Shown here: positions 346-20,076 of the stretch, one piece after another
Numbering within the stretch: the stretch's first letter is position 1
Layout: each line of letters starts with the position of its first letter
NCBI GenBank assembly: GCA_902763885.1
Contig: CACWTU010000004.1
Location: 124,001-188,000, forward strand
Source: an uncultured Bacteroidales bacterium
Lineage (GTDB): Bacteria > Bacteroidota > Bacteroidia > Bacteroidales > Bacteroidaceae
Direction of reading: 5' to 3'
Length of the DNA: 64,000 nt
Notes under the pieces: generated by a model
Database searches by the model: none
What the model saw: the letters and a program-made list of their open reading frames with translations, nothing else
Told to the model about the DNA's origin: nothing
Made by a program: the position numbers and the translations under genes

Positions 346-1629
346 CTATATGCAAAGATGCCGTCTTATTGCCTCCCCGTGTTTCTTAACAGCATCTTTA
401 AATCCACCTATACACATCATAAAAATACCATTCCTAGAATACACCGGAGCATCATGCTCTTCTACTATAAGGGGAAACTCTTTTTGCCCAATTTCAATAT
501 AAAGTCTATCCCTAACAAGTCTTGATATAAAAACAAATTCTTCAGGGTTGCAGTTATGAGCTAAATGTTGAAAGAACGACGTATATGTATCTATGTATGA
601 GGGAAACTTGTCTATAATCACCACCTTGAAATTATCCCCATGTGCAGCAATACCCAATCCAAGAATCTCATTCAGATACAAATCTCCAAAAGAATAGCCA
701 ATAATCATCAGCCGGTTGTTCTCTATCACCTTTCTTGTTAGATCTGAAAGATATACATTATTGGGAACAAATGTCATCTTCTCGTTTTTCCTTAATCCAG
801 AGACAATGTATGGCTGCAAATAATCTTCTCTTGCCTGATTTGACGGATTCTGCTGCCCTCCCATTCTATTCTTAAAAGCAGTCTTATAGTCCCTGTTTTT
901 TACCATATCACGTATACTATATTCAAACGGGTATTCCTTTGCCTCACTGAATAGAATCTGACCATGTAGATGAGCTATAGTTGATAACCTTCCTCTATTT
1001 TCAAGATATTTTGTTGCTGAAAACCTACAATAATCCTCACCATCTTTGAGTGGCAAGAAACCATCCTCATATTCACCGAGACTATTTTCTATAGTATTAT
1101 CATAATTCAGGCTGAAAATATTTGATCTCCCTGACAATGATTTCCAAAAATCCCGATACCATTGCTCTGTTGATGTATCCTCACAAAAAGATGTATCATA
1201 TTGATTAACAATACTCATTACCGTTTTTTGCAGTCCATATGCAGCCCGAATATATTCATACGTCTGAATTTCTTTTAAGAATCTATCTGGATGTATCAAA
1301 GCACCAAACTCAGGAGGTGAAGGCCACGACAAATATTCTTTATGCCAGCAACCACTATATGCAAGACACATTTCAACTACCTGCAACAAAATCTCAAAGT
1401 TTAATTGAGACGGGACAAAACGGTCCACACCAGGTCTACTTACATGTTTCAATTTCTCAACAATATAGTCATTGAGTTCACGCAACAAAGGCCTCTGGCC
1501 ACCTTTAACCTTTTGGATATTAAGTTTAAGAACTTCTTCGGTGATATTCTGCACAGAAGGAAAAGCGCCTTTGTATTCAAAATCCAAAACGGCGCCAGCA
1601 CCCACTATAATTGTTGTTGCGTCTTTCAT
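346..1629 (-). CDS. SIR2-like NAD-binding domain protein
   Basis: The 427-residue product has the hallmarks of the SIR2-like superfamily found in phage-defence NAD hydrolases. It shows an N-terminal nucleotide-binding loop IIVGAGAVLD, a central FSLNYDNTIE (the NYD-type Asn/Asp motif), an AHLHGQ segment holding a candidate catalytic His, and a late IIGYSFGD motif. Family knowledge suggests NAD+ binding or cleavage, often to kill or arrest an infected cell. It is the last gene of the unit that starts at the M42 peptidase, 28 bases after the SEC-C gene. I infer an effector role. It could instead be an independent defence gene. No membrane segment or signal peptide is visible. Confidence 0.75.
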   Translation of the reverse strand: MKDATTIIVGAGAVLDFEYKGAFPSVQNITEEVLKLNIQKVKGGQRPLLRELNDYIVEKLKHVSRPGVDRFVPSQLNFEILLQVVEMCLAYSGCWHKEYLSWPSPPEFGALIHPDRFLKEIQTYEYIRAAYGLQKTVMSIVNQYDTSFCEDTSTEQWYRDFWKSLSGRSNIFSLNYDNTIENSLGEYEDGFLPLKDGEDYCRFSATKYLENRGRLSTIAHLHGQILFSEAKEYPFEYSIRDMVKNRDYKTAFKNRMGGQQNPSNQAREDYLQPYIVSGLRKNEKMTFVPNNVYLSDLTRKVIENNRLMIIGYSFGDLYLNEILGLGIAAHGDNFKVVIIDKFPSYIDTYTSFFQHLAHNCNPEEFVFISRLVRDRLYIEIGQKEFPLIVEEHDAPVYSRNGIFMMCIGGFKDAVKKHGEAIRRHLCI

Positions 1630-1657
1630 CTCAAATAAAATAAGATGATGGAATCAA

Positions 1658-2464
1658 TTATACACCAACTAATCCCGGCCTAAACTCATAAACCACATGT
1701 TTAATACCTTCAGGATCATTCTTGCAACAATCAGAATATTTTTTCCCGGAACCACAAGGACAATTATCACTATCATGTAGGCCAGGAAACTCTTTGGGAC
1801 TTTTATGAATATGTTTTATCGTATAATGCCATGCAGCATATGGATCTTTCCATAATTCCATCAATCCATCTAACAACAGATAATTATAATGGTCTTTCTG
1901 TCCCTCCTTTCCATTGCCTAAAAATGCCACAGCGTACTTATGTTCAGGATTATAAACTAGCGAAACACCTTTCAATTCCCATTTATTAATAATATCACTG
2001 CAAAATTCTCCCAAATATACACGCCCAGGGAAATGGCCACAATGTTGACGAATAATTCTTTTTTTACCACAAATGCTACATGTACGTTCCTTAATGACAA
2101 TCTCCGTACTCATGAACATCTTATAAGGATATAAACTTTGAAGCTGTCTAACAATGACACTAATATACTTTACAGTATTCTCTACACCCTTAATATTACG
2201 CAACAAGTTGCCTATACTTATTTCGATTTGCTCAAGTAAGCACCATGCATCATAGTATTGCCTGTTTTTAAGCATTGAGAAAACCTTTCTGAAATCTCGA
2301 TGTATACCGACAATTGTTATTATTGCCCATGCATTATTGGCATTATCCTCATCCTGTTGTTGGCGGTATCTTATCCTTAGTTCATCTATATCAGCGATGG
2401 TTTTATCATAGTCGAAATCCTCATCTAACAGATGTTTAATAATTTCTGTGGCTTTTTTATTCAT
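1658..2464 (-). CDS. SEC-C motif zinc-binding protein
   Basis: The 268-residue product ends with a SEC-C zinc motif (CPCGSGKKYSDCC at about residues 238-250), a metal-binding module known from the SecA C-terminus and from many nuclease- and helicase-associated proteins. A second cysteine/histidine cluster, CSICGKK then HCGHFPGR and a further Cys, lies near residues 130-155 and probably binds another zinc. The N-terminal half is helical and charged. The start overlaps the end of the 173-residue gene by 8 bases, so the two are probably translationally coupled. No enzymatic motif is visible. An adaptor or nucleic-acid-binding role is inferred from the domain only. Confidence 0.7.
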   Translation of the reverse strand: MNKKATEIIKHLLDEDFDYDKTIADIDELRIRYRQQQDEDNANNAWAIITIVGIHRDFRKVFSMLKNRQYYDAWCLLEQIEISIGNLLRNIKGVENTVKYISVIVRQLQSLYPYKMFMSTEIVIKERTCSICGKKRIIRQHCGHFPGRVYLGEFCSDIINKWELKGVSLVYNPEHKYAVAFLGNGKEGQKDHYNYLLLDGLMELWKDPYAAWHYTIKHIHKSPKEFPGLHDSDNCPCGSGKKYSDCCKNDPEGIKHVVYEFRPGLVGV

Positions 2465-2978
2465 TCCAAAGTCTTTCTATTTCTTCAGCTATTGATTTAT
2501 AATCCGATGCGGGACCTTCATACTGAAATTCTTTCTTCTTGCCAGTGGAATCCTCTACAGCTATTGTAAAACTAATAACAGCAGGTTGTTGATATTCCGG
2601 CAAATCATCACCAGATTCAACTGTTTGTGGTTCACGTATCCTGTCATAGATATAGTTACTAAGTATTCCAAGAAACAGAGGTAATGCAATAGACTTAACT
2701 ATAAATCGCCCCAACCTCACTGTACGAGAATTTAGTTTTAGTTCTTCATACCCTTCATTACTAATACAAATCTCCACATCTTCTCCCAATTGAGATTGGA
2801 GAAAAGCGAATAAATGTAATGTCCCTCCTACAAACGCCTTTGGTTGAGTTGGTATCATTGAAGGTACAATAAGGACATTCGCCTTAATTGCACTCGTTTC
2901 CAGCTTCTCCGGCAAATCAAGCATGTCCACCCATTCCTCACGAGAACGAGTTATGCTATTAACTATTAAATTATTCAT
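2457..2978 (-). CDS. hypothetical protein with one predicted membrane segment
   Basis: The 173-residue product has a soluble N-terminal domain of about 90 residues, then a hydrophobic stretch (IVKSIALPLFLGILSNYIY, about residues 92-112), and a short C-terminal domain rich in acidic residues. The hydrophobic stretch could be a single membrane helix or a buried core helix. I do not recognise the family. The gene overlaps SNF2 upstream and SEC-C downstream by 8 bases each, so it is an integral part of the operon. A role anchoring or regulating its neighbours is possible but only inferred from position. Confidence 0.6.
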   Translation of the reverse strand: MNNLIVNSITRSREEWVDMLDLPEKLETSAIKANVLIVPSMIPTQPKAFVGGTLHLFAFLQSQLGEDVEICISNEGYEELKLNSRTVRLGRFIVKSIALPLFLGILSNYIYDRIREPQTVESGDDLPEYQQPAVISFTIAVEDSTGKKKEFQYEGPASDYKSIAEEIERLWNE

Positions 2979-5238
2979 CTATTAATTGCTTAATATCGTC
3001 AATAGTCAATCTATCAGATACATTATTAAACACATCCGCAGTTAATCTCTTTTGCTCCTGCAACTGCAATATTTTCTCTTCAACAGTATTTTTACAGATG
3101 AGACGTATCGCTAATACCGGATTCTTTTGTCCAATCCTATGTGCACGTCCAAGAGCTTGATCCTCGACAGCTGGGTTCCACCAATCATCCAATAAAATCA
3201 CTCTATCTGCTTTAGTCAAATTAAGCCCCACTCCGCCAGCTTTAAGACTAATCAAGAAAACCGGTGTAGAATCATCATTTTGGAATCTCTCAACAGGTGT
3301 TTTGCGATCATTTGTATCGCCATATAGACTTACAAACTTAATATTATTTGTATCAAGTAACGATTCCATCTCGTGCAATACACTTACGAACTGAGAAAAA
3401 ATAAGTGTTTTGCGCCCTTCTGAAATAAAATTCTTCAAGTATACCAGCGATGTATTTAATTTCGTACTCTCCACATGAGAGATACGTTTCAGTTCAATAG
3501 GTAAGATATTTGCCGACACGCAGCATTGGCGCAGACGCAATAAGCCTTCTAAGACTATACTATTAACCCTTCCGGAAACACCAGTATATAACGCGCTTAC
3601 AATTGCTTTATGGATGTAACTATATATCTGCTGCTCTTTCTCAGACAACTCAACATAAACAGTCTTTTCCATTTTCTCCGGAAGATCCTTCAACACCTCT
3701 TCTTTTGTCCTACGCAAGATAAATGGTTTCAATAGTTTTCCGCTCCATAACACATATGCTTCCGGGGAACTTGAAAGCCCTCTTTTTTGTAATTCAGAAT
3801 ACATTGATTTCATCTCTGGATTCAACATCAGGAAATGAGACCACATATCTTCAATAGTATTCTCTATTGGAGTGCCAGTTAGAATGATTTTGTGTTTGTA
3901 TTTTAGTTGCGCGATTGACTTATACTTCTTTGTTTCCCTATTTTTTATGATTTGTGCCTCATCAATTACTATTGTATCATATTGGCTTTTAGTATAATCA
4001 TCAAGATGGATACGCAGCATGTCATAACTGACAAGAATAAGTTTATCCATCAGTTGGGGAGCAAATCTATTAACTTCACTTTCCCAATTATAAATAAGTG
4101 ATACTGGAGCCACAATCAGATGCTTCATTTGAACATCCAAACAAGCCAGATGAGCTATAACCTGCAGCGTCTTTCCTAATCCCATTTCATCTGCCAAAAG
4201 ACAACCTGCTCCTTTTAAACGCATACGTTGCAGCCACAGGACGCCATCCATCTGATATGGTCTTAATTTTGCATGTACTCTTTCAGATAATAATTGCTTT
4301 ATTCTCTTATCATTGATTTCAACCTCGTTTTGAGAATACAAGGTAATAACGTTCTGTGTAGCACCAGACAAAGTAGCAAGCCCTTTTTCACTACCAGACA
4401 TAGAGTCCTTGCTGTTAAACAATACGATATTACCATCAGATTCCACATAGTTTCTACTTCTAATAAAACTATCAAGCATTTGGTTTGAAACATCTGCTTC
4501 CGATATCCCTACAGTAGAAAACCATGTTATACCACTTGAATTACTATGCGCAAATACCTGAGAATTACTCTTCTTGGATCGATTTGGAACAAATAACGTC
4601 CATCCTTTTGACAATATCTCTTTCAATCGCTCCGTATCCAATTCATTTAAAGAAAACAATCCTGTACTTTCGTCATATCCATTATTCAGCACCTTAAGCA
4701 ACTCTCTTTCTAAATCAATGTCTCGCAATAAGAGCTTTCCTTCATTATCGACAAATAGTGATTGCTTTGAACCGGGCCAAATAGAAAGGTTTGTATTCTC
4801 ATACCTAAAAGAGACCTCAATATTTTTATTCCATTGGTTTAAATTAGTAACATGTAATTCGCCACTAACAAACTTACCAACTTCATATGTTGTGGTACCT
4901 TTTGACTTAAACGGACATTTTGCCTTTTTCAAACTTCCATGCAATCCTTTTTGAGAATAAGACCATTCACAGCTATTTAAAACAGACACAATATCTCTGT
5001 TATTCAAATAGTTCTGATTACTTATTTCAAATGATGAAGATGTTGTCGTACCACTCTGATTTACTAAATCCAACAATTGGGATTGTGAGGGGTTAACTTT
5101 ATGCTTTAACTCATCTAGCGAGACTCGTCTCTGAAAAGGAGAAAGAGTTTTAGCGTTGGTCTCATTGCACACTTCAACTCTAAGAACGGTCTTGCCATCC
5201 TTATCCTTCTCATAAATACAGACAAGTCTATAATTCAT
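2971..5238 (-). CDS. SNF2-family DEAD/DEAH-type ATPase (helicase-like)
   Basis: The 755-residue product has a full SNF2 motor in its C-terminal 440 residues: Walker A in LADEMGLGKT (near 350), DEAQ box (near 426), and the late HRIGQ motif (near 701). SNF2 proteins use ATP to translocate on double-stranded DNA and recur in defence systems such as DISARM. The N-terminal 300 residues have no recognisable domain. The gene starts one base after the radical SAM stop codon and overlaps the next gene by 8 bases. That linkage of a SNF2 motor with a radical SAM peptide module is unusual. No nuclease motif is visible inside it. Confidence 0.9.
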   Translation of the reverse strand: MNYRLVCIYEKDKDGKTVLRVEVCNETNAKTLSPFQRRVSLDELKHKVNPSQSQLLDLVNQSGTTTSSSFEISNQNYLNNRDIVSVLNSCEWSYSQKGLHGSLKKAKCPFKSKGTTTYEVGKFVSGELHVTNLNQWNKNIEVSFRYENTNLSIWPGSKQSLFVDNEGKLLLRDIDLERELLKVLNNGYDESTGLFSLNELDTERLKEILSKGWTLFVPNRSKKSNSQVFAHSNSSGITWFSTVGISEADVSNQMLDSFIRSRNYVESDGNIVLFNSKDSMSGSEKGLATLSGATQNVITLYSQNEVEINDKRIKQLLSERVHAKLRPYQMDGVLWLQRMRLKGAGCLLADEMGLGKTLQVIAHLACLDVQMKHLIVAPVSLIYNWESEVNRFAPQLMDKLILVSYDMLRIHLDDYTKSQYDTIVIDEAQIIKNRETKKYKSIAQLKYKHKIILTGTPIENTIEDMWSHFLMLNPEMKSMYSELQKRGLSSSPEAYVLWSGKLLKPFILRRTKEEVLKDLPEKMEKTVYVELSEKEQQIYSYIHKAIVSALYTGVSGRVNSIVLEGLLRLRQCCVSANILPIELKRISHVESTKLNTSLVYLKNFISEGRKTLIFSQFVSVLHEMESLLDTNNIKFVSLYGDTNDRKTPVERFQNDDSTPVFLISLKAGGVGLNLTKADRVILLDDWWNPAVEDQALGRAHRIGQKNPVLAIRLICKNTVEEKILQLQEQKRLTADVFNNVSDRLTIDDIKQLIDE

Positions 5239-5239
5239 C

Positions 5240-6577
5240 TTAGAACTTATAATAGTACATAAATGAGTCTATCATCTTTCTTTCAAGACTATTTATATAA
5301 TCGTCATTACACTTAATCTGAATTATCTCTTCATCATCCTTTGATAATCGTCCCTTAATGTTACAATCATCTATCCGGCATCCACCGGAGCATATATACC
5401 TCAAGTGGCAATCTCTACAAGGAATAATATTGTCAACTGAAGTAGTCATATATAAATCATGACCTTTCTTCATAAAAAACTCGATATCATTATCCCTCAC
5501 ATTACCATAGCTGTCAACTTCAGATATTCTATTGCAAAAATAGACCTCCCCATCTGCACCAATTGAAATACCGCCAAAACCGCAATTCTTGGCAACCAAA
5601 TTTGGTGTATGCCCCTCCATAAAGTTATTGAAAGAAGCATCTTTATCTACAGCCTTTTCTATTTCAAGTATCTTATTATAAAAAATTCTGTTCTGTTCTT
5701 CCGAATAATGAGTGCCCCTACCGCTAAGTATCTTCTTACTCAATTTAAAGAAAACCGGATTCTTACAACGAGACTTAATCACCTCAACCATACTCTTATA
5801 AAGCATAGGAGAATCTCCCTGTAAATTGTCAAATGTAAAAGTCGTTGCGACCGATGTTCTTACCCCCGCATTTGCAAATGCAATCACGCTCTCAACAACC
5901 TTTTCAAAATGGCCCGCTCCACGAACTACAGCATTGGATGATTCATCAACACCATCAATGCTTATCTGTACTTCCGATACGTATGGAGCTATTTCTTCTA
6001 TCATTTTACAACTCCATAACAAGCCATTTGTTAAGATAGTAACATTCAACTTTATGTTATGAGCATATTTAACGATATCCAAAAATGACTTCTTCATTAA
6101 TGGCTCACCGCCAGAAAAAGTAACGCTCTCCCCCCCAGCCTGTTTAAAACGCGACAGGACATGTTCCCACTCACTCAACGATAGTTCATTCTTTAGACTT
6201 ACCCCGGAATTCATAAAACAATGCTTGCATCTTAGATTACATGCATTTGTTATGTAGCAGTTAAGCATCTTATAACCTTCCAGGAACTGAGGCAGAGGCT
6301 TTTGATCAATTCTAGCAAAGTCTCTTGCTGTAATAGAAGCCAGTAGCTTCTTTAGTTCTTCACGACTTGATTCTGATTCAAGAGTGTTGTACACTTCACC
6401 TACAGTCCATCCTTCTATTAATTGCTCTAGCATTGAACGTTGGATATCTGATGTCAGTACAATCCAATTAGCCGTCTCAACTGAAATAGCCAACCATCCT
6501 TCATGACAGCTACGAAATACTATTTTGCCACCAAAATAGAATCTGTCACTTCCACTCACCAAGCCATGATTCTTCAT
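5240..6577 (-). CDS. radical SAM/SPASM peptide maturase with PqqD-like N-terminus
   Basis: With the ATG at 6577 the product is 445 residues. Residues about 1-90 look like a PqqD-type RiPP recognition element (pattern EGWLAIS...LEQLIEGWTVGEVY). The radical SAM CxxxCxxC is in ITNACNLRCKHC (near residue 115). A Cys-rich SPASM segment near the C-terminus (CGFGGIS, FCNRI, CRDCHLRYICSGGC) would bind auxiliary Fe-S clusters. Such enzymes install thioether or C-C crosslinks in ribosomal peptides. A TTG-initiated extension to 6637 exists but would run through two strong hairpins, so I prefer 6577. The gene lies just downstream of a 35-residue Cys-containing peptide, its likely substrate. Confidence 0.88.
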   Translation of the reverse strand: MKNHGLVSGSDRFYFGGKIVFRSCHEGWLAISVETANWIVLTSDIQRSMLEQLIEGWTVGEVYNTLESESSREELKKLLASITARDFARIDQKPLPQFLEGYKMLNCYITNACNLRCKHCFMNSGVSLKNELSLSEWEHVLSRFKQAGGESVTFSGGEPLMKKSFLDIVKYAHNIKLNVTILTNGLLWSCKMIEEIAPYVSEVQISIDGVDESSNAVVRGAGHFEKVVESVIAFANAGVRTSVATTFTFDNLQGDSPMLYKSMVEVIKSRCKNPVFFKLSKKILSGRGTHYSEEQNRIFYNKILEIEKAVDKDASFNNFMEGHTPNLVAKNCGFGGISIGADGEVYFCNRISEVDSYGNVRDNDIEFFMKKGHDLYMTTSVDNIIPCRDCHLRYICSGGCRIDDCNIKGRLSKDDEEIIQIKCNDDYINSLERKMIDSFMYYYKF

Positions 6578-6599
6578 ACAGCATCTGTCTATAAACAAA

Positions 6600-6632
6600 T
6601 TGTGTTCCTGAGCCACCGACCCGGGAACACAA
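6600..6632 (-). promoter_or_regulatory. 9-bp stem hairpin in the peptide-rSAM spacer
   Basis: TTGTGTTCC at 6600-6608 pairs perfectly with GGAACACAA at 6624-6632 around a 15-base loop. It sits between the peptide stop and the preferred ATG of the radical SAM gene. The palindrome ACCCAATTGGGT (6632-6643) lies next to it. It may control read-through, transcript processing or translation of the maturase. There is no U-tract, so a classical terminator is unlikely. Confidence 0.5.
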
Positions 6633-6654
6633 CCCAATTGGGTAAGTTATTTAT

Positions 6655-6679
6655 ACTAATCCTTGATCAGGGGATTAGT
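6655..6679 (-). promoter_or_regulatory. 8-bp stem hairpin over the peptide stop codon
   Basis: ACTAATCC (6655-6662) pairs with GGATTAGT (6672-6679) around a 9-base loop, and the stem includes the peptide gene's stop codon. On the transcript it is followed by an AT-rich run. In many RiPP operons a hairpin after the precursor gene makes the peptide more abundant than its modifying enzyme. I infer the same here. Confidence 0.5.
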
Positions 6680-6782
6680 TTTGATTAACATCGCAACGCT
6701 TGAAGCAATACATTGCGCCAACGCGCTCTGCATCTCCAGCAGTCTTTGATTCCCAATTGAAAGAAATCTTAAGATCTTCCAT
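6675..6782 (-). CDS. candidate RiPP precursor peptide, 35 aa, CFKRC motif
   Basis: An ATG-started 35-codon frame lies between the M42 peptidase (28 bases upstream) and the radical SAM/SPASM gene. The product begins MEDLKISFNWESKTAG and ends VGAMYCFKRCDVNQN, so the N-terminal half is a plausible leader and the C-terminal half, with Cys 26 and Cys 30, a plausible core. Position, size and the PqqD-like domain of the neighbour all fit a ribosomally made, radical-SAM-modified peptide. No GG cleavage site is obvious; VGA may be a cleavage region. I do not recognise the peptide from any named family. Whether it is a toxin, a signal or a cofactor is unknown. Confidence 0.65.
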   Translation of the reverse strand: MEDLKISFNWESKTAGDAERVGAMYCFKRCDVNQN

Positions 6783-6810
6783 TGTAACAAATTGTTTTTT
6801 AGTTAGATAA

Positions 6811-7842
6811 TTAATTATTATATAGTCTCAAATACTCAATTATTAAATGCACAGCACTTTCAGCATCTGCAATTGATACCACCTCATTTGGGGTATGCAT
6901 ATATCGGCAAGGAATGCTCAGTAACCCAGCTGCAGCACCAGTTCCTGCAACCTGAATAGCCCTTGCATCTGTTCCAGTGCGTTTAGGAAGAGCCTCCATC
7001 TGATATGGTATATTTGATTTTCTTGCAACGTTTAGCAACTTATCGCTAACTGATTTGTGCATATTGGGGCCAACTGCTATTACCACACCAGCTCCTAACT
7101 TGATATCACCATCTTTAACCACCGACATAGTGGGATAATCGGTTGCATGAGTCACATCAATGGCTATGCCAACATCCGGCAATATTCGTTCTGTAACAGT
7201 CTGAGCACCCACAGAACCAAGTTCCTCTTGTGCTGAAGCCACAAAATATACATCAGCATTAGTCTGACCTAGTTTTTCTGCCACGGCTATCAGTATTGCA
7301 AGTCCAATCCTGTCATCAAGTGATTTGGAGGCAACTATCTTATCTGACAATAAAACAGGTTCTGATATAATAGTGGCCACTTGGCCAATGTGAACTTTTT
7401 GTTCAGCGTCTTTCTTATCTTTAGCCCCTATGTCAATCCACAAATCCTCTGGATTAATAGTTCGGGGTGAATCAGTCTTATCCTGTAAATGTATTGGTTT
7501 TTTACCAATTACACCTATCACGGATCCATTAATCCCTTCAATTGAGATTTTTTGACCAGGAAGTAAACTTGTATCTACGCCACCAATCTCTTTAAAATAA
7601 AGAAAGCCTCGCTCATCTATGTAATGAATCATAAGACCGACTTCATCAGCATGAGCAACCAACATCACCTTACTTCCCGAACCAGTTTTATGAGCAATGC
7701 AATTGCCTGTCACATCAGTTTTCACCTCAGTAACATATGGTGCAATAGACTGACCGAACAAGTTAATTACCCGTTCTTCGCTTCCTGAAGGCCCTACAGT
7801 CTTAAGTAAGTCCAGTAATATATCTTTAATCGTATTAGCCAA
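6811..7842 (-). CDS. M42-family metallo-aminopeptidase
   Basis: The 343-residue product matches the M42 glutamyl/tetrahedral aminopeptidase family in length and motifs: metal ligands in VAHADEVG, DDRIG and the QEELG catalytic segment, then DVTHATD and a late MHTPNEVV. These cytosolic enzymes remove N-terminal residues from peptides using two metal ions. The start is TTG; no earlier ATG fits, and the TAnnTTTG box at 7865-7872 places the transcript start just before it. It is the first gene of the unit containing the peptide and radical SAM protein, so it could trim the modified peptide. It could also be a housekeeping peptidase captured at the locus. Confidence 0.85.
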   Translation of the reverse strand: MANTIKDILLDLLKTVGPSGSEERVINLFGQSIAPYVTEVKTDVTGNCIAHKTGSGSKVMLVAHADEVGLMIHYIDERGFLYFKEIGGVDTSLLPGQKISIEGINGSVIGVIGKKPIHLQDKTDSPRTINPEDLWIDIGAKDKKDAEQKVHIGQVATIISEPVLLSDKIVASKSLDDRIGLAILIAVAEKLGQTNADVYFVASAQEELGSVGAQTVTERILPDVGIAIDVTHATDYPTMSVVKDGDIKLGAGVVIAVGPNMHKSVSDKLLNVARKSNIPYQMEALPKRTGTDARAIQVAGTGAAAGLLSIPCRYMHTPNEVVSIADAESAVHLIIEYLRLYNN

Positions 7843-7864
7843 AATCTACCACAACTATTTTATG

Positions 7865-7872
7865 CAAAGATA
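7865..7872 (-). promoter_or_regulatory. Bacteroidetes -7 promoter box for the M42-peptide-rSAM unit
   Basis: The minus strand reads TATCTTTG here, a perfect TAnnTTTG box. Initiation about 7 bases downstream would leave a leader of roughly 15 bases before the TTG start of the M42 gene. No clean TTG -33 element is at the ideal distance. It suggests that the M42-to-SIR2 run is a unit separate from the deaminase genes upstream. Confidence 0.5.
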
Positions 7873-7983
7873 GTATATCTATTTTGCCCATAAAAGACTT
7901 TACCAAATAGTTTTCAACACTTTTGATTATGATTTCATATTACACCAATAGAAGCAAAATGAAGTATTTATAAAACGATTGTA

Positions 7984-8376
7984 TCACTCTTGAGGACTCT
8001 TAACAACTTGAGGACTCTTATCAACTATGGGATTCTTAACAATATATATAACCACACTTAATCGCTTATTCTCATCTGCTTTATCATCAAATCTGCTAAT
8101 TACAGTATTATATAAAGAATTGCCCCAACTCATTTTCACATACTTAATGATAGATTCAGAATCCTCTTTTGACAGAACACCAATTATCCTCGGTTCCTCA
8201 TCCCCATCAACGTTTATCTGTACATAGACTTTTTCTTTATCCTTATCTTCACAATAACCCAAAAACAACTTATTGTTTACATTAAGTTGCGACCATACCT
8301 CCTCGGTCAAAGCATCATACCTGTTGGTCTCACAAACGTAGCATTCTTTCAAAAATTCTTTTTTCATATCACCCAT
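7984..8376 (-). CDS. small protein, possibly HIRAN-like
   Basis: The 130-residue product starts 10 bases after the adenosine deaminase-like gene, so the pair is probably co-transcribed. The stretch RIIGVLSKEDSESIIKYVKM followed by a strand-rich SRFDDKADENKRLSVVIYI recalls the C-terminal half of HIRAN domains, which sit in DNA-repair and helicase proteins. The match is by pattern only and the N-terminal HIRAN residues are not clear. The last 15 residues contain a short repeated VDKSPQ/VVKSPQ segment. Function is unknown; an accessory subunit of the deaminase is the simplest inference. Confidence 0.55.
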   Translation of the reverse strand: MGDMKKEFLKECYVCETNRYDALTEEVWSQLNVNNKLFLGYCEDKDKEKVYVQINVDGDEEPRIIGVLSKEDSESIIKYVKMSWGNSLYNTVISRFDDKADENKRLSVVIYIVKNPIVDKSPQVVKSPQE

Positions 8377-8386
8377 ATAGTTTAAT

Positions 8387-11047
8387 TTAATAGTTAAAGC
8401 GTTGTTCCATAGACATCTCTCTTACCCTATCAAGCCATTCAATAATAGCTCTAGGAGAGTTCTGATATTGTTCAGTTTGGTTACGTTCAATCGCTAGTGC
8501 CATCAATGAGAACTCTCTTTCAAGTGAAGTAGAGAATATACCTTGGTCATCAGTATTGATGGAAACTGAGATGTCATGCCTTGGATATGGAGTATTTAAA
8601 CCATAGTTAAAGAAACGAACAATTGGGTGCTGATCATACCGTTCTATTTCACCAATCTTGAAATTTGAAGAAGGATTACACTCAATCGCGATATGTCGTT
8701 GCTCTATCTTTTCTAGTAAATGCTGCTGAATCTTTTCTAAAAGTGTATTCCATTCCTCTCGATATATCTGAGGTATTGACAATGTTTCACCTATGTTTCG
8801 CTTATTAGCATATCGTGGAGAATGATAAGCATCAAATAACTGTCTTGCATTCTCATTTTTCAGAGCAGACTCCGAACCCACATTGTGATTCAAGGCCGCA
8901 TATGACCATTGTTTATCTATTGTGCTCTTTTGGGCCATAGATTCCGAATCCAATTCAGTACCCACAATAGGTGAGTTTCCTCTAAGCAACCATGAAAGAT
9001 AATAATCATCAATATCATCAGGCAACGTCTCTGCAGGTTTCTCTTTGAAAAGTGAATCAATAATAGTTTGTCCTGGCTTCCGTGCATCATTATATATCTC
9101 AGAGAAATACCGTAGGAACATGATGTCTATCCACCCGCATAGTTGAGTATACCCAATCAGACGTATACATTTATGATGAAGCCAGGCCAGATTATCCAAG
9201 ATAACCTGTTTGCTAGCACAAATGGAATAATACCGCTTAGCATAGTATTCACGCACATCTGTTCCCAACACTAATGCATGTCCGAGTCGATCGCCGTTCT
9301 TAAGATTGAGGAATATCAAAGCTTCTTCCACAGCTCTGAGTCCATCAGCTATGTCCATAAAGTCTTCACCTACATGATATGTAATCCTCAAATCATTAGG
9401 ATAATCATCTATTTCCTCATTAATCTTCACCTCATGCCCTCGTAAAAATCTAAATGCCTGAGCATATATCTCCGGGCGACAAAATATCTCAGAATTAGCC
9501 GCATCAAGCCCAACTACTTTTCCAACCAAATTGTTTCTTGCCCAATTATCCCTATTACTCCTAAAATTATATATGGCGTAAGCTTGCTGCCTTATTTCTT
9601 CCCTCAATTTATAGTGCTGATATTTATCAATATCCTTCGGCTCATCCCTTTTTTTGATGAAATGAAAAATAAAGTTGTAGTGATCCCAATATTCTGGGGC
9701 TATCTCTTTATTAATCTCATCTAGTGACTTAATGATGCCTTCTTCTGTATTCTTGGGGACTATTCTAGCTTCAATAAACCTATTAGTTTCTTTTCTTCCT
9801 AATCCTTTACCCTTTTCCAGAAAGCCTTCCAAGGCAGCTTTGTAAAGCAAATGGTTATATTGGCTTTCTATCATATAATCAGTCTTTCTCTCTTCAAAAC
9901 TGGCAAAATTTGCAAAACCGACCCTGTCATTCAACTGCATGACTTCATTTCTGAAATGATTCTTATATGAAAGGTATGCATAGAATAGTGTAGCAATATC
10001 CTTTCTTTCTCCACAGTCGTCGCTATAGATACTCCTAAATACTGAATACATAAGAGACCTCTCAGATGCAAGAACTTTATTTTCGATAGGTTCTTTTTCG
10101 TAATGGTTTACGGGAATATAGTCTATTACGTCATCATCTGTTATACCAGCCAGTTCTCTAAATTTTTCCAACATTCTGGAATGTGTGTTTGCAAAAGTGG
10201 AATCCAATTTCTCCTGAAGGCTAATCTTGTATGCTTCGATAACATCCTGTTCCTTTGGAACTACAAGTTCATTTTCATTCAATATCCTCTGTAACTCAGC
10301 TAATGTTATAGTTTGAGGCAAGCAACCACATGCACCTGCAAGATAATATCTAATTGCACAGGCTTTTCTTACAGACTCATACAAATCGTCACTGGAACCC
10401 TTATACTTAAAATATGGGTGTTCTATCTCAAAATGCTTTTGCATTATCCCAATATGGTTCATAAGGCAAATCCAACTCAGATCGAAATTGAAAGACGACC
10501 CTTTTAGATGCATATGTAGTTCTGCCATAGGTTTCTCAAAGATGTAATTGAGTTCCTTGCAATCATGTCCCACAAATGAAGCCCAGTCAAAGCTCTTCCT
10601 TTCTTTATCCAGGACTAAATCTCTTGAGGCTAAGAAAGATGTCGTTAATAAATCCTCACCCACTTGTGTCGTAAGTAAATGCCAACGAAGAAGATATTGA
10701 TACTGACATAGAGGATCTCCATCTTTTATTGAAAGACACTTGGCAGAGAAGTATAGCAGTATATTGAATACTGAAGGGATTATATTAAATTTTAAATCTA
10801 TACAGTTTTCATCTTGTTCCATCCATTTGAATTGGACAATCTGGCATAGCATTGTTAATTGATCAATAGTACTATCATTATCAACTTGAAGTAGTTTGTT
10901 GACAATCGTTGATTCCTTGATAGAAGTGTCCAAGTGAAGGATTTCTTTTGATTGTTGATGGCCGTTTATATAGCCACCAGCATCTAATATTTCGTCTCCT
11001 CCTACTTTCTCAAATAGTGCTTTTATAACTGTACTGATATTTTCCAT
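8387..11047 (-). CDS. RdrB-like adenosine deaminase-family protein, 886 aa
   Basis: All metal and catalytic signatures of the adenosine deaminase superfamily are present in order: ELHMHLKGS (HxH, about residue 177), YHVGED, RLGHAL and SINTDDQ (about 833), with ECNPSSN just before the last. The length is over twice that of ordinary Add and fits RdrB, the large deaminase of the RADAR anti-phage system. RdrB converts adenosine-type substrates to inosine. The partner ATPase RdrA is not adjacent. The neighbours are a SIR2-like gene upstream and a small HIRAN-like gene 10 bases downstream. It may belong to a RADAR variant or a different large-deaminase system. The deaminase fold is certain; the RdrB assignment is an inference from size and context. 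Confidence 0.75.
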   Translation of the reverse strand: MENISTVIKALFEKVGGDEILDAGGYINGHQQSKEILHLDTSIKESTIVNKLLQVDNDSTIDQLTMLCQIVQFKWMEQDENCIDLKFNIIPSVFNILLYFSAKCLSIKDGDPLCQYQYLLRWHLLTTQVGEDLLTTSFLASRDLVLDKERKSFDWASFVGHDCKELNYIFEKPMAELHMHLKGSSFNFDLSWICLMNHIGIMQKHFEIEHPYFKYKGSSDDLYESVRKACAIRYYLAGACGCLPQTITLAELQRILNENELVVPKEQDVIEAYKISLQEKLDSTFANTHSRMLEKFRELAGITDDDVIDYIPVNHYEKEPIENKVLASERSLMYSVFRSIYSDDCGERKDIATLFYAYLSYKNHFRNEVMQLNDRVGFANFASFEERKTDYMIESQYNHLLYKAALEGFLEKGKGLGRKETNRFIEARIVPKNTEEGIIKSLDEINKEIAPEYWDHYNFIFHFIKKRDEPKDIDKYQHYKLREEIRQQAYAIYNFRSNRDNWARNNLVGKVVGLDAANSEIFCRPEIYAQAFRFLRGHEVKINEEIDDYPNDLRITYHVGEDFMDIADGLRAVEEALIFLNLKNGDRLGHALVLGTDVREYYAKRYYSICASKQVILDNLAWLHHKCIRLIGYTQLCGWIDIMFLRYFSEIYNDARKPGQTIIDSLFKEKPAETLPDDIDDYYLSWLLRGNSPIVGTELDSESMAQKSTIDKQWSYAALNHNVGSESALKNENARQLFDAYHSPRYANKRNIGETLSIPQIYREEWNTLLEKIQQHLLEKIEQRHIAIECNPSSNFKIGEIERYDQHPIVRFFNYGLNTPYPRHDISVSINTDDQGIFSTSLEREFSLMALAIERNQTEQYQNSPRAIIEWLDRVREMSMEQRFNY

Positions 11048-11179
11048 AACTAAATTCTAGTAGAACCGATTACGTATCCTCAAATTAATTTTTCTACTTC
11101 ATCAATTACAATAATTGAATTACTTATTTTTCCACATCAGAATTATCAAGACACAAACTGCTATTTGCCTAATCTAACA

Positions 11180-12208
11180 TCACAACTCCCCCGGCAAATA
11201 AAACTGTCCGCAGTCACTAATAGGAATTGTGGAAACAGAAATATTAGTAGGCAGCACGGCCTGCATAGCCTGTCTGACAGCTGAAGTATTGATGTCCTGA
11301 ACATACACCTTCTCCAACTTAGGCATGTTTCTAAACACAAACCTATCCATTTCTCTATTAAAGTATGGGAATGAATAACCTATCACAACTACCTGTTCTG
11401 TGTCTTCAATAGTAGATTGAATCGTACTCAACCAATTCTCTTTATTACTTGATTCCTCCCATGCAAATGAGAGATGGTTATAGAATTGGAAGTCCAATTG
11501 ACTGGTATCTATATGAATATTACCATAAATGATTATCAGTTGAAGAGATACTGGTAATCTCTTCTCATTTAGAATAGAATTAATGATTGGTGAATCCACA
11601 AATGATGCTCTTCCGTTCAGTTTAATAATTCTTCCATTATCTGTTATTCCAGGCCACTTGCCTTTAGTATTCTTCTCATATACAATTAATCCATTACCTG
11701 TGCCATAAGACCGATATGCATGCTCAATTTGTGAATCATAATTCCATGATAAGATACTTATATCATGGGGAAGATTCAGTTTGGGCATCTCAAGAACATT
11801 AGCTAAAAATGTGTCATAACGATTATCCGGCTTATGCTCAATTTGTTCCCATAAGAAAAATGCACACAATACATCCTTTAGTTTTTCAAAGCCCCTTTTA
11901 TTTTGTGTCAAATATAGTTTACGAGCATACGTATCAATTGTAGCATGTTCCTGAATTCCGACAATAAGGCTGTCAATATCTTCAATCAGCCTTTTTTGAA
12001 ACTGTTCAACTTCGGCTGGCTCTGCACTAAACCAATTCCATAAATACATTAATCTATCAGGAATACTAACAGATGAGATACTTGCTCTAAAAGCATTAAA
12101 ACGTGATGGAATCTCTGAAACAACAGGTATTCCCTCCTGTATTCCACCAAATTCATCACGTTTACCGTAGCTTGCGCCTGCTCCTAGATAGTATATCGTT
12201 TTGCTCAT
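11180..12208 (-). CDS. SIR2-like protein, catalytic His replaced by Asn
   Basis: The 342-residue product has the SIR2-like layout: YYLGAGASYG at the N-terminus, ILSWNYDSQIEHAY in the middle and VVIGYSFPYFN late. The position where relatives usually have KLHGS reads IKLNGRAS, so the usual catalytic His appears to be Asn. NAD binding may remain while hydrolysis is lost or altered. It has its own promoter-like boxes and lies 132 bases upstream of the RdrB-like deaminase, in the same direction. A sensor or regulatory role beside the deaminase is possible. The alignment around LNG was done by eye. Confidence 0.72.
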   Translation of the reverse strand: MSKTIYYLGAGASYGKRDEFGGIQEGIPVVSEIPSRFNAFRASISSVSIPDRLMYLWNWFSAEPAEVEQFQKRLIEDIDSLIVGIQEHATIDTYARKLYLTQNKRGFEKLKDVLCAFFLWEQIEHKPDNRYDTFLANVLEMPKLNLPHDISILSWNYDSQIEHAYRSYGTGNGLIVYEKNTKGKWPGITDNGRIIKLNGRASFVDSPIINSILNEKRLPVSLQLIIIYGNIHIDTSQLDFQFYNHLSFAWEESSNKENWLSTIQSTIEDTEQVVVIGYSFPYFNREMDRFVFRNMPKLEKVYVQDINTSAVRQAMQAVLPTNISVSTIPISDCGQFYLPGEL

Positions 12209-14692: not shown

Positions 14693-17600
14693 TTATGCAC
14701 CGTTCTCTTCGCTAGTACCTTCAGAACTCTCTTCTAAGGGGAGAATATTCAATCTCTCAATCAAAGCCTTGAACTCCTCATTTGAAGAACTTCCGTGAAG
14801 TTTGATCAATTCATTTTTTAAGTCAGAAGCCTGATCAATATAATCCTGAAGGAGTTTCTCATACCTCTTTGAATCGCCAAGTATTATTGACTGTACGGCA
14901 TCCTGACCAATAATAGGTTTCAACACTTTGTTCAAGAATACTACCTCGTGATTCCTCGTCTGCTCAAAATAATGGTGTAATTTCTGGAAGATAAAGAGGC
15001 TTATGCTATACGTATTACTTGCAAACTTGTCCATCGCTTCATTCACCTTTGTAGAAACGCTGGTAAACTTCACGCGACTCAGGAGAGTGGTTAGCACCTC
15101 TTCATCCATCGTGTTTTCCACGATAGTTCTACCACATATCCCATCAATCAAATGATTGACAATCTCAACGACATTGGTAGGATTAGCCCGCCAGAAATCA
15201 GCATCCTTTACAACTCGCCTCATCATCTTGGGCCAGTAGTTTCCTGCTATCCAGACATTTGAGCCATCCATAAACTGATTCCATGCCTTGCTACCACAAT
15301 CCTTGTAGTACTTTTCGAGCAATGCCTTTGAAAAGTCGTTCTTATCTGCCACTAGAGCATCTATCCAGGCTTCTTGTGGCAGAACAGCAGCAAAATCTAT
15401 TTTTTCTTCTTCTTGCGTTAAGTCTTTTCTGCCCCAATCGTTCAAGTACCGTATGACATCTTTTCTGTCTGCCCCAGTCCTGGTTACTATAGTTACCATT
15501 TCGTTGACAACATCTTTCGTATCAGTAACCTTTCCGTCATGGAGGTTATTCTTAATCAGATATGCAGTAAATTGGGCGTATACCGTAGTATTTACCGTCT
15601 GGCAATTCTCCCATATCTTTTTTGCTGATTCATATTTAAACGCAACCTTGGCCATAGCCTCGTAGTCTGTATCGTTTAGGCCGTTTATTTCTTTTTTAGC
15701 CAACATCAGCAATACTCTGTAATCAGGCTTTAGTTCACCATCATACTGTAGTCCATTAAGATACGTACTATCAAGATTCAATTTCATCGGTTCATCGTAC
15801 AATATCTTTAGGACCTTTATCACTGGCTCAAAGTTATTGCTCGTCACTTCTTGTCCCTCTATCATCTTTCTAGAGGCTTCCTTTAACCTACGGTAGTCGA
15901 ACCGTTTATCCCCAACAGTCAACTTCACAACATCGGAGACATCATCATTATTAGCTATCTGTTCTTGGCAAAATGTATTTAAGTCATCGTTAGCACAATA
16001 AATAGGATAGTTCTTATAATCCTCTTTAGCCGCTCTGACATACTCAACAAAGTCTGTATTTACCATTTGCCCTTCGGGCAGTTCTATCGGAAGTTCCAAT
16101 CCTTTTGCATAGTCTGAGAAGTCTTTATACACCTTATACCACTCAACCCCTTTATGTGTATTTTCACTATTGGTAAACAGTTTTAGGAAATGCTTGCCAA
16201 TAGACGCCTTATCAGTGCAATGAATCATCAAAGACTTTACTTCATCCCTAAAAGAGTTTTCCTTCCCTTTGCTATTCTTATACAATTTCGCAAGTTTTTC
16301 CCAGACGGCTTCGAGATTAGCGGCATCTTGTTCATTCAGATTTTCAGGAGCAAGTACAGCCACATCATTGATTGCATTATTCAGCAGTGCGGCATCCATA
16401 TTATCCACCACTTCCCTCAAAATACTGTAGAAGTGTACATTCCTTGTCGCATAACCAGCAAAATCACCAACTACCGAATTATTAAGAGCCTGGTTAATTA
16501 GGTTCTTAATTGGCAACTGACCAGCATCTTTAATATCCACGCCGTATGTAAGAGCGGATATTTCCGTATCTAATTCATCTGTTTGTTCATATAAACTCTC
16601 TACCCCCTTCAAATAAACCCTATTTACTATACTATTCTCTGATGATTTCAGTATCTCATCCTGATTTAGCAGGAACAAAGCCATACTTGACAGTTTTACT
16701 TTCTCACCCCACTGATTTGTCAGCGATACAAGTTTATTGATAAATGAGATGATATCTCGAATGTTGGGGGTTGGATTCTTCAGTCTGTAACTGCGGTTAA
16801 TAAGTTCTTGCTCATCTCGCTTCCCAAAGGCTCTCTCAAAAAGTTTATCGAAAACTACCTTATAATCCGTGATAATTGGCTCGGGAATTCGATATACAAC
16901 AGGAAAAGTCTTTTCAATAAAATAGTTCGTTAACTGTTCTTTATCTTGTGCATCACTAAAGGCATTCGCCAAATGCTTCCTATCAAAAGGAATAATGCAC
17001 CAGACTCTTTTATAACCACAATCTGCGAAGAATGTCTGTATGGATGACCATAGCTGCCTAACTTTCTCTCTGGGCAATCTATCCATATTATCAAAAACAA
17101 TAACCAGTTTTAGGTTTTCCTCAAGAGCATCAGACAAATCTACCATCCATTCTCTAAACTCAGAAATCGAAGGCTCCAAATCGCTTATAGTATATGTGGT
17201 TGTATCTGTCCTTCCTGATGTTTGATACATCTGCCACATCTCACTCCATGACCATCCTATCAATTTATTTTTCTCTTCCTCCGTCTCAGCTTTTGCCTTC
17301 GCCTTTTTCTTCTGGTGCATCATCCAGCAATAACCAAGTAGGGGTACAAATGCAATTACAGTTGCAAAGTATGTGTACCAACACGGCGTACTGCTCACCT
17401 TGATAGAATTCAGAAGCGGCACCAGCAAACCGGTTAGCACCAACATCAACAAAAAGAATTTGGTAGAATCGTAAATTGATGGTATCGTAACATTATGCGT
17501 AGAGGACTTTCTTGAAGTTAATAGATCCACCCTCTCTTGCCATGTGCATTCTTGTGGTTTAGGACTTACATCTAGCGCACTGCTATACATCTTAACCTGA

Positions 17601-17962
17601 GTGTCTCCAACCAGTTTCTCATCCTTGATTAACCTGTTAGTCAACAGTTGTAATAAGGATCTTCTTTGAAGATCTTCCTGATTACCCCACGCATCGTAGG
17701 TAAAGAAGTAATAGCCTTTACCCAATTTGTTCTTTAATTGGAGCAAGGTGTTTGACTTACCAGAGCCCCAAGAACCCTCAATACCAATAATACGGGGCAG
17801 AGCTTTTTCTTTCTCCTCATCATCTTTGGGAGCTGGTTTAGCATCAACTTTAAGGATATGCTGCATCAGGGCTATAGCCACTTTGTCTTGTGACTGACCA
17901 TCAAATAAATCCTCACCTAAAGGTTTATTAGAAAGAAATTCTGCCTTCTTTGCCATTGCCAT
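14693..17962 (-). CDS. KAP-family P-loop NTPase with membrane segments
   Basis: The product is about 1089 residues from the ATG at 17962; a TTG at 17983 is less likely. Walker A is GSWGSGKSN (near residue 70), and Walker B is LVIVFDNMDRLP (near 290). Two hydrophobic segments inserted between them (near 165-215) are the classic KAP NTPase layout, anchoring the ATPase to the inner membrane. KAP proteins are common in defence islands. The C-terminal 700 residues are helical and unassigned, a possible sensor. It follows the RloB-like gene by under 50 bases and is probably co-transcribed with the RloA/RloB pair. Confidence 0.85.
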   Translation of the reverse strand: MAMAKKAEFLSNKPLGEDLFDGQSQDKVAIALMQHILKVDAKPAPKDDEEKEKALPRIIGIEGSWGSGKSNTLLQLKNKLGKGYYFFTYDAWGNQEDLQRRSLLQLLTNRLIKDEKLVGDTQVKMYSSALDVSPKPQECTWQERVDLLTSRKSSTHNVTIPSIYDSTKFFLLMLVLTGLLVPLLNSIKVSSTPCWYTYFATVIAFVPLLGYCWMMHQKKKAKAKAETEEEKNKLIGWSWSEMWQMYQTSGRTDTTTYTISDLEPSISEFREWMVDLSDALEENLKLVIVFDNMDRLPREKVRQLWSSIQTFFADCGYKRVWCIIPFDRKHLANAFSDAQDKEQLTNYFIEKTFPVVYRIPEPIITDYKVVFDKLFERAFGKRDEQELINRSYRLKNPTPNIRDIISFINKLVSLTNQWGEKVKLSSMALFLLNQDEILKSSENSIVNRVYLKGVESLYEQTDELDTEISALTYGVDIKDAGQLPIKNLINQALNNSVVGDFAGYATRNVHFYSILREVVDNMDAALLNNAINDVAVLAPENLNEQDAANLEAVWEKLAKLYKNSKGKENSFRDEVKSLMIHCTDKASIGKHFLKLFTNSENTHKGVEWYKVYKDFSDYAKGLELPIELPEGQMVNTDFVEYVRAAKEDYKNYPIYCANDDLNTFCQEQIANNDDVSDVVKLTVGDKRFDYRRLKEASRKMIEGQEVTSNNFEPVIKVLKILYDEPMKLNLDSTYLNGLQYDGELKPDYRVLLMLAKKEINGLNDTDYEAMAKVAFKYESAKKIWENCQTVNTTVYAQFTAYLIKNNLHDGKVTDTKDVVNEMVTIVTRTGADRKDVIRYLNDWGRKDLTQEEEKIDFAAVLPQEAWIDALVADKNDFSKALLEKYYKDCGSKAWNQFMDGSNVWIAGNYWPKMMRRVVKDADFWRANPTNVVEIVNHLIDGICGRTIVENTMDEEVLTTLLSRVKFTSVSTKVNEAMDKFASNTYSISLFIFQKLHHYFEQTRNHEVVFLNKVLKPIIGQDAVQSIILGDSKRYEKLLQDYIDQASDLKNELIKLHGSSSNEEFKALIERLNILPLEESSEGTSEENGA

Positions 17963-18009
17963 ACTTGTTATTTGGATTAACAATCTTCATTCTAGTAGTT
18001 CTATCCCCC

Positions 18010-18624
18010 CTACTTCATTATCTCTTTTATGATATCAAACAGCTTATACATCTGAGAGTAAGACTTGTACACTTCAGGCTCCATTTCATGCAACTTGTCC
18101 AGTTCACGAGACAGTTCAATGGCCCTCTCCATATTACCCTTCTCTTTCAACTCCTTGTAGATATGAGTCTTGTTGAAGAAAACCTCCGTCTTGTCATAGT
18201 TAGGAATATGTTTCTTGAGTTCTTGAGCCACGGCATCATAGTCTGCGTATTCCTTACTAGACGGTCTGGGCATAAAATGCATCAGAAACCAGTATTCCGT
18301 ACATGGACTAGACTCCACAAAGATGATCTTGGGATTATCCCTTTTCAACGCTTGATAATGCTCCATTTTTTCGTGGTTACCTTCAATCACATCCATGTCT
18401 ATCAAGCACAATACATAATCGTAGCCGGCGTTAATCCGTTCTTTTGCCAGCCTAACAATATCATCAATGTCAGAGTGTTTGGGTATACCAGGCACAAGAC
18501 TAAACCTGTAGCGTTCAGTTGTGCGCATATCATCTACATAGCGATACTCTGTAAGTCCCTCGCCAATGATAGCTATGCTCTTCCGTACATTTCTATTCTC
18601 CGTCTTCCTGGTCATAATACTCAT
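18010..18624 (-). CDS. RloB-like TOPRIM protein (AbiL second component)
   Basis: The 204-residue product matches RloB: an N-terminal IIGEGLTEYRY holding the catalytic-type Glu, LCLIDMDVIEG as the DxD-type segment, and SSPCTEYWFLMHF. TOPRIM domains cut or handle nucleic acid. RloB-like proteins pair with an RloA-type ATPase in the AbiL defence system. Its start overlaps the end of the ATPase gene by 32 bases, which supports a two-gene system. A KAP NTPase gene follows closely. Confidence 0.82.
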   Translation of the reverse strand: MSIMTRKTENRNVRKSIAIIGEGLTEYRYVDDMRTTERYRFSLVPGIPKHSDIDDIVRLAKERINAGYDYVLCLIDMDVIEGNHEKMEHYQALKRDNPKIIFVESSPCTEYWFLMHFMPRPSSKEYADYDAVAQELKKHIPNYDKTEVFFNKTHIYKELKEKGNMERAIELSRELDKLHEMEPEVYKSYSQMYKLFDIIKEIMK

Positions 18625-19918: not shown

Positions 19919-19943
19919 ATATTATCAGTATTAAATTACGATA

Positions 19944-19974: not shown

Positions 19975-20076
19975 TTTTATTTTAATATTTTGCAAGAAAT
20001 TCACGATTTCCACATATAAAATATGCCAAATTGTCATTTTTAGCATTATGGCATATTAATTGTCATTATTAAGAAT

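Follow-up and report, generated by a model that had tools for sequence, protein, structure and literature searches.

The window studied here is a stretch of 64,000 nucleotides from an uncultured Bacteroidales bacterium (contig CACWTU010000004.1, positions 124,001 to 188,000 of the forward strand), and coordinates given for it are counted from its first letter. Its minus strand carries four contiguous genes encoding an M42 family metallopeptidase, a 35-residue precursor-like peptide, a radical SAM/SPASM enzyme and an SNF2 ATPase, accompanied by a RADAR-type (RdrB-like) adenosine deaminase gene. The same peptide, leader included, was found in nine viral contigs. These phage-borne copies are the strongest lead of the analysis; an earlier note on the window, made from the letters alone (the sequence-only reading), had missed both them and the deaminase. 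The findings suggest that the peptide is a control point in the conflict between phages and bacteria. Our best explanation, put forward tentatively, is a gate: the SNF2/deaminase machinery would be controlled by the matured peptide, and phages would carry its precursor for counter-defence. The core and its partner module are laid out as follows.

6811..7842, minus strand: M42 family metallopeptidase, 343 aa; core gene (Pfam, 2e-88)
6675..6782, minus strand: precursor-like peptide, 35 aa, C-terminal end RVGAMYCFKRCDVNQN; homologues in seven other bacterial cassettes and nine viral contigs
6600..6632, minus strand: terminator- or attenuator-like hairpin (TTGTGTTCC...GGAACACAA) between the peptide and radical SAM genes; predicted stem, z −1.91 in the window
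5240..6577, minus strand (listed open reading frame 5240-6637): radical SAM/SPASM enzyme, 445 aa from its ATG (Pfam Radical_SAM 5e-22; SPASM below gathering score)
2971..5238, minus strand: SNF2 ATPase, 755 aa (Pfam SNF2 1e-50, Helicase_C 2e-20)
8387..11047, minus strand: RdrB-like adenosine deaminase, 886 aa; partner module (PADLOC RdrB 2e-31)
7984..8376, minus strand: small HIRAN-like protein, 130 aa, adjoining the deaminase (homologous to ORF110 of locus L008 and ORF130 of locus L130)

Organization and distribution of the core

A genome collection was scanned with the radical SAM alignment and the best 80 of 532 confirmed stretches were kept; ten window proteins were compared with 10 of these 80 loci, and nine (the radical SAM enzyme omitted) with all of them. 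The best match among the 80 was Phocaeicola vulgatus ATCC 8482 (L008), where M42, peptide (79% over 29 aa), radical SAM enzyme (53%), SNF2 (39%), deaminase (46%) and a small open reading frame (ORF) follow one another. In the P. vulgatus family, a peptide profile matched five of 250 genomes, P. vulgatus and four new ones (L129 to L132), and all four new loci have M42, peptide, radical SAM and SNF2 genes side by side, the L129 contig ending inside SNF2. The four-gene core is contiguous in the window and these five relatives, together called Bacteroidota-type loci, and M42 stands directly before the peptide in all six (five of five with the window set aside). The window is grouped with the others on account of its -7 box and of its cassette, to which theirs are the nearest. 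Two more cassettes, in Desulfamplus (L009) and a Syntrophobacteraceae metagenome-assembled genome (L031), which we take to belong to the Desulfobacterota, have the order peptide, radical SAM, SNF2; no M42 match was found at either. Peptide, then radical SAM enzyme, then SNF2 is the order at every bacterial locus that encodes the peptide (8/8, SNF2 of L129 being cut by the contig end). SNF2 starts at most 4 bases from the end of the radical SAM gene, or overlaps it, in the window and the five other Bacteroidota loci, and the two genes also adjoin in both Desulfobacterota loci and in Treponema. The sequence-only reading had placed a small peptide, an adjacent radical SAM enzyme and M42 beside an SNF2 ATPase. 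The relatives show this linkage to be stable, and in the window it lies in a defence island. An apparent second, broken copy of the peptide was seen just upstream in Desulfamplus (L009, 8600-9163).

The cassette is rare. Counting peptide matches at E<=1e-4, in genome sets that share some members, the profile hit one of 295 genomes in the order to which the window belongs (the window's own genome), one of 147 in the class of Desulfamplus (Desulfamplus itself), two of 45 in one genus (both already counted), none of 46 in a further class and none of four further genomes, neither of these last two sets holding a positive control. Every bacterial match at this threshold was a cassette copy (8/8). 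With the threshold relaxed to E<=1, five genomes gave three weaker matches elsewhere (E 0.016-0.36), which were taken as chance. The radical SAM enzyme was found in two of 393 genomes of the order, the second (G274) being a solitary relative without SNF2, and in one of 395 genomes of the phylum, the window's own.

The three enzymes carry the motifs that mark active members of the M42, radical SAM and SNF2 families: HADE, EELG, DVTHA and YMHTP in M42, CNLRCKHC and CxxCx5CxxxC in the radical SAM enzyme, and GLGKT, DEAQ and QALGRAHRIGQ in SNF2. The radical SAM gene most likely starts at the ATG at 6577 and not at the TTG at 6637; the ATG fits the relatives. Its product has the CxxxCxxC motif and the SPASM cysteines expected of an enzyme acting on a ribosomally synthesised and post-translationally modified peptide (RiPP), with a SPASM match below the Pfam gathering score. 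The nearest solved structures to its profile are SkfB (6efn, E 5e-33), the maturase of the sporulation killing factor, and 5wgg (profile positions 29-428, E 1e-21), which we take to be CteB. Enzymes of this kind bind the leader through an N-terminal RiPP recognition element (RRE) domain. We presume that the radical SAM enzyme is a peptide maturase and that M42 serves in leader trimming or peptide turnover. In SNF2 the helicase core begins at about residue 310, and the N-terminal part of about 300 residues is unclassified.

The peptide and its hairpin

The 35-residue ORF is not a chance reading frame. A profile built from the seven cassette peptides of other genomes recovered the window peptide at E 2.7e-21, the next of 2401 six-frame segments scoring 0.04. 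Over the last 14 codons, all pairs among seven cassettes (the Syntrophobacteraceae copy left out) show 120 synonymous against 39 nonsynonymous differences, the pairs not being independent. The hallmark is R-x4-YCFKxC near the C-terminus, and in all eight cassettes a short precursor with conserved leader and core lies beside the maturase, as in radical SAM-modified RiPPs. No NCBIfam model matched the peptide, and PHROGs gave only single-member matches at 0.02 or worse.

A strong hairpin is predicted 3' of the peptide stop codon in 8/8 cassettes (z −1.9 to −4.75), differing in sequence and weakest in the window, where a simple terminator scan did not call it on the minus strand. A hairpin at this place would suit a peptide needed in greater number than its enzyme, and may let peptide mRNA exceed enzyme mRNA. 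When the same test was applied to eight phage peptides, seven gave z −1.6 to +1.3. The hairpin is typical of cassettes, not wholly confined to them.

Peptide copies in viral contigs

Pattern and profile scans found the full peptide in nine viral contigs (L088, L089, L091, L093, L094, L095, L096, L098 and L107), and a further scan brought no more. L088 and L095 are more than 99% identical over their overlap, so the nine contigs are counted as eight viruses; L143 is the L107 contig again. An alignment of four bacterial and seven viral rows, made before L107 was added, has R20, Y25, C26, F27, K28, C30 and N35 invariant. Leaderless YCFK matches (L090, L092, L097, L099-L102, L136-L142 and L144) were rejected as chance.

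The leader was also scored by itself, with a profile from the eight cassette leaders run against about 5750 viral segments cut before YCFK. The six best segments were all phage peptides, from six contigs and five viruses (E 9e-6 to 2e-3). Seven motif-only matches served for comparison, of which three were too short and none of the four scorable ones was recovered. L098 and L107 are slightly favoured in this test, as AM or M before YCFK had been part of the original pattern or query. By leader score, the Bacteroidota cassette L130 is the nearest to L098 and L093, and Desulfamplus the nearest to L088 and L094; this fits phages that track the cassettes of their hosts, in so far as a ranking can.

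Phage status was assigned by gene content where tested, and for the other contigs by IMG/VR and a reading of their ORFs. The contig represented by L098 and L103 reads as crAss-like from the L103 genes, and L093 is a large phage. In the former the peptide sits among replication genes, with DNA polymerase and primase around it; in L107 its neighbours are exonuclease V and primase, in L089 a holin, and in L096 capsid and scaffold genes. A Shine-Dalgarno-like AGGAG precedes the peptide in L088/L095 and L091, and GGGAG in L089; no such sequence was seen before it in L093 or L098. The radical SAM enzyme was not found in the nine peptide-bearing viral records, in a search that detected both positive controls. 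Searches of isolated phages for the radical SAM enzyme gave nothing credible, and those of viral contigs for the membrane protein and the radical SAM enzyme nothing useful. The 72,556 plasmid records held no credible peptide copy (one query, at best E 4-9).

Two other accounts of the peptide bear on these data. An ordinary RiPP cluster, making a signal or an antimicrobial, might lie in defence islands with SNF2 as a loose neighbour and the phage peptides as lysogen-fitness genes. The window is indeed a crowded defence island, and sister radical SAM enzymes (L011, L012 and L014) stand beside other cysteine peptides (GC[FY]xxCC) at loci where SNF2 gave no match; such a peptide is present at L013 as well, a locus that ends soon after the radical SAM gene. 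The tight SNF2-radical SAM junction in Bacteroidota loci, the adjacency in two Desulfobacterota and Treponema, the lack of a transporter among the conserved genes and the position of the crAss-like contig's peptide among replication genes make this account distinctly unlikely. The four sister enzymes come from rumen Bacteroidales and Treponemataceae contigs, and their peptides, of which L013 seemingly has two copies, apparently form another RiPP family.

Alternatively, the system could sense the phage's own peptide, the maturase product then triggering SNF2 and the deaminase. Phage peptides retain the leader, so that a host maturase could act on them. Since the cassette itself encodes the same peptide, and phages would be keeping a gene that betrays them, this is the least likely of the roles considered for the peptide and a very improbable one.

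The deaminase and its HIRAN-like partner

Near the core, an RdrB-like deaminase was found within 2.2 kb in five of the five testable Bacteroidota-type loci (L129 being cut off). In the window it lies upstream of the core on the same strand, in P. vulgatus it follows SNF2 after 15 bases, and in L130 it is convergent to the core. At L131 and L132 a PycC-type cyclase and an RdrA-like ATPase come with it; it follows SNF2 in L131 and lies 2.2 kb upstream in L132. Among the 294 other genomes of the window's order, a deaminase at E<=1e-60 occurs in three. The module is separable from the core but strongly associated with it; in part the association may reflect clustering within defence islands. As a side observation, the RdrA/RdrB-like operons of L131 (549-6163) and L132 (631-6290) are headed by a Pycsar-type cyclase gene, a variant of RADAR of which we know no description.

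The window deaminase has the motifs HMH, HVGED and NTDD. It scores 166.8 bits with the NCBIfam RdrB model against a cut-off of 800, and its PDB matches are the adenosine deaminases 8fnv and 8fnw (2e-26), presumably RADAR RdrB. The adjoining HIRAN-like ORF is homologous to ORF110 of P. vulgatus (8.8e-7) and ORF130 of L130 (5e-16), with no match at L131 or L132. It had no Pfam match itself; the P. vulgatus ORF matched HIRAN at 1.7e-4 and so narrowly missed the gathering score. HIRAN is a domain that binds 3' ends of DNA and occurs together with SNF2 enzymes, HLTF being one.

With an effector of this kind in view, the main rival to a gating peptide can be weighed. The modified peptide may itself be the effector, an intracellular toxin, with SNF2 as sensor or regulator and the phage copies as decoys that saturate the maturase or receptor. 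The hairpin would favour a high peptide dosage, the radical SAM enzyme resembles the maturase of a killing factor, and a 2020 eLife paper (PMC7159879) predicts, for another conflict system, a peptide effector that is likely modified by a radical SAM enzyme. The conserved genes include neither an immunity nor an export gene, however, a deaminase effector is already at hand near all testable Bacteroidota-type loci, and the phage-borne precursor would be open to conversion into a toxin by the host. We regard the peptide toxin as somewhat unlikely.

Genes outside the conserved unit

The sequence-only reading had joined seven minus-strand genes, from a -7 box before M42 to a SIR2-like gene, into one functional unit. 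The ORFs and their short gaps or overlaps are as described, with intergenic distances, M42 through SIR2, of 28, 97 (to the ATG), 1, -8, -8 and 28 bases; the box is weak evidence of an operon start, and the seven genes as a unit did not hold. The remaining features of that group are:

2457..2978, minus strand: small membrane protein with one hydrophobic stretch; accessory, outside the conserved unit
1658..2464, minus strand: SEC-C protein (Pfam SEC-C 1e-5)
346..1629, minus strand: SIR2-like protein (Pfam SIR2_2 1e-7; LNYD and HLHG present, motifs that mark active SIR2 members)
7865..7872, minus strand: possible -7 promoter box (TATCTTTG) before M42; weak evidence, from sequence

TAnnTTTG is present at 7872, with nine such matches in 8.2 kb of the minus strand, and the box was therefore dropped as proof of an operon start. 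None of the other cassette loci yielded a match to the membrane protein, SEC-C or SIR2, L129 and L031 being cut off on their downstream sides. SEC-C relatives occur in 210 plasmid records. Three of these plasmid regions were opened (Acinetobacter, Enterobacter and Pseudoalteromonas), and in each the gene before SEC-C encodes a homologue of the membrane protein (blastp 4e-22, 5e-17 and 6e-10); no radical SAM, SNF2 or M42 gene was annotated in the stretches shown. The membrane protein and SEC-C are an independent two-gene module that joined the window operon. On the plasmids (L133-L135) the pair of a protein with one transmembrane segment and SEC-C stands once after an AAA ATPase gene and once after an FRG-domain gene. 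No SIR2 was found in plasmids, and the window SIR2-like protein is probably a separate or added effector. Pfam gave no supported match for the membrane protein or the peptide.

A seven-gene system including these three proteins, for which the close or overlapping same-strand genes of the window would speak, is hardly credible given that the three are unmatched in testable cassettes and that the membrane protein and SEC-C form a pair of their own in 3/3 plasmid regions. The operon boundary is not the functional unit: the deaminase and HIRAN-like genes go with the core, and the last three genes do not.

Upstream of the deaminase a further gene (11180-12208) reads as SIR2-like, with SWNYD and KLNG and no Pfam or PADLOC match; from the KLNG, its usual catalytic His seems to be Asn. 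The region 14693-32736 is a dense defence island with a KAP NTPase, an AbiL-like pair (18010-19918), Avs4 (22148-26626, E 9e-292), a GHKL-ATPase protein with a weak match to a type II restriction endonuclease model, and an OLD-like ATPase/TOPRIM protein.

Proposed mechanism

We infer an anti-phage activity, a cross-linking chemistry for the peptide and a role for it in the following scheme. The radical SAM enzyme would bind the leader and cross-link the C-terminal R-x4-Y-C-F-K-x-C region, and M42 would trim or degrade the peptide. Made in excess, the mature peptide would act as an inhibitory ligand of the SNF2 motor, which in turn would keep the nucleotide-deaminating effector idle. The block would be lifted once a phage attacks DNA, replication or the supply of peptide, and conversion of ATP to ITP, as for RdrB, would halt phage growth. 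A phage-borne precursor would either let the host maturase make extra inhibitor or tie the maturase up, and in both cases blunt the defence. Three points favour an inhibitor: the peptide presumably exceeds the other products of its operon, an RdrB-like effector that could poison its own cell lies close by, and additional inhibitor would benefit a phage that brings the bare precursor, as in the case of pseudo-ToxI. RdrB alone is reported to convert ATP to ITP and to be toxic when overexpressed without phage (PMC9994260); pseudo-ToxI (PMC3475682) is a precedent for antitoxin mimicry by phages, and an antitoxin mimic is also reported for DarTG (PMC11481870). The fuller statement, of a RiPP-gated defence in which unrelated phages (crAss-like, large gut-type and several other tailed phages, by gene content) carry a bare precursor that the host maturase makes into an off-signal, is possible and held with more doubt.

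A number of observations weigh against gating by the peptide and its use as counter-defence. On the bacterial side, the N-terminus of the Desulfamplus radical SAM enzyme looks frameshifted, by decay or assembly error, and Treponema saccharophilum (L005/L015) has an FRG-domain gene, radical SAM enzyme and SNF2 in a row without a YCFKxC peptide, possibly a variant with another substrate. The N-terminal part of SNF2 is poorly conserved and its structure was predicted with low confidence (mean pLDDT, the predicted local distance difference test score, 60.5, most of residues 1-300 below 50); this prediction and that for the HIRAN-like ORF (pLDDT 40.4) were not used for any conclusion. The deaminase may be a defence-island neighbour: it was not found near the Desulfamplus cassette (the L031 contig ends just after SNF2), and the 13-18 kb examined in each of the three other deaminase-bearing genomes of the order held no further gene of the window. 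On the viral side, L107 keeps all the invariant residues except the last, ending in NNY, so the final Asn is not universal. In the leader-only test L093 was not recovered, and L094 and L096 scored about 0.5, with unrelated segments at 0.22 above them and 0.55 just below. Among the phages, L098 also has the predicted hairpin (z −2.76), and a short stem with T run was seen in L096. The viral records may be fragments, in which case a maturase could lie elsewhere, and two queries of 50,697 isolated phage records brought up no credible peptide, the first matching nothing and the second twelve records at E 4-9 only. Read from genomics, the peptide could be inhibitor, toxin or trigger.

If gating by the peptide is right, a RiPP would serve to control bacterial immunity inside the cell instead of being exported as an antimicrobial. 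The phage response would be a precursor gene of about 35 residues, dependent on a modifying enzyme of the host. RiPP chemistry, SNF2 motors and nucleotide-deaminase immunity would then be linked in a way that can be tested in P. vulgatus ATCC 8482. A peptide common to bacterial cassettes of two phyla and to eight viruses needs explanation even if the role guessed for it is wrong.

Comparison with known systems

Each enzyme alone is of a known kind; it is the combination and the proposed mechanism that we take to be new. The sequence-only reading knew of no described system with this combination, and none was recognised in word searches of open-licence literature; nor was a description of phage-borne RiPP precursors as counter-defence recognised there at the level of titles, abstract openings or passages.

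The window resembles RADAR in its RdrB-like deaminase with the catalytic zinc motifs HxH, HVGE and DD, found by PADLOC, motifs and PDB matches, and L131 and L132 share the RdrA-like ATPase as well. It differs in that the deaminase is far below the NCBIfam RdrB cut-off and linked to the peptide, radical SAM enzyme, M42 and SNF2; no RdrA match was found by PADLOC among 18 window proteins.

With sactipeptide and ranthipeptide clusters (SkfB, StsB, 5wgg) it shares an adjacent short cysteine peptide and a radical SAM/SPASM enzyme whose N-terminal part 5wgg also matches. Unlike them, the cassette has no exporter or immunity gene among its conserved genes, has SNF2 in its operon order, lies in a defence island and has its peptide also in phages. 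Assignment to the StsB sactipeptide subfamily (NF045574, 124.6 bits against a cut-off of 625) or to viperin (pVip, NF038283, 83.5 against 180) was rejected.

A radical SAM-modified peptide has been predicted in print before as part of a conflict system, namely for a variant of the vWA-MoxR (FtsH) ternary conflict systems (PMC7159879). The window cassette has SNF2, M42 and the deaminase instead, and when 20 window proteins were run against Pfam, neither vWA nor MoxR nor FtsH came up.

The SNF2 ATPase core is shared with Zorya ZorD, DISARM DrmD and DpdE (DpdE model 2e-103, ZorD 2e-84, over the helicase domains only). Membership in these systems was rejected on NCBIfam scores (ZorD 186 bits against 1500, DrmD 84 against 950 and 47 against 610, DpdE 63 against 500), and none of their partner proteins matched among the ten genes at 346-12208.

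The closest likeness on the phage side is to antitoxin mimics, pseudo-ToxI against ToxIN and that of DarTG, which are phage copies of a component of the host system. By analogy the phage peptide may act in the same manner, with the difference that it would need the maturase of the host.

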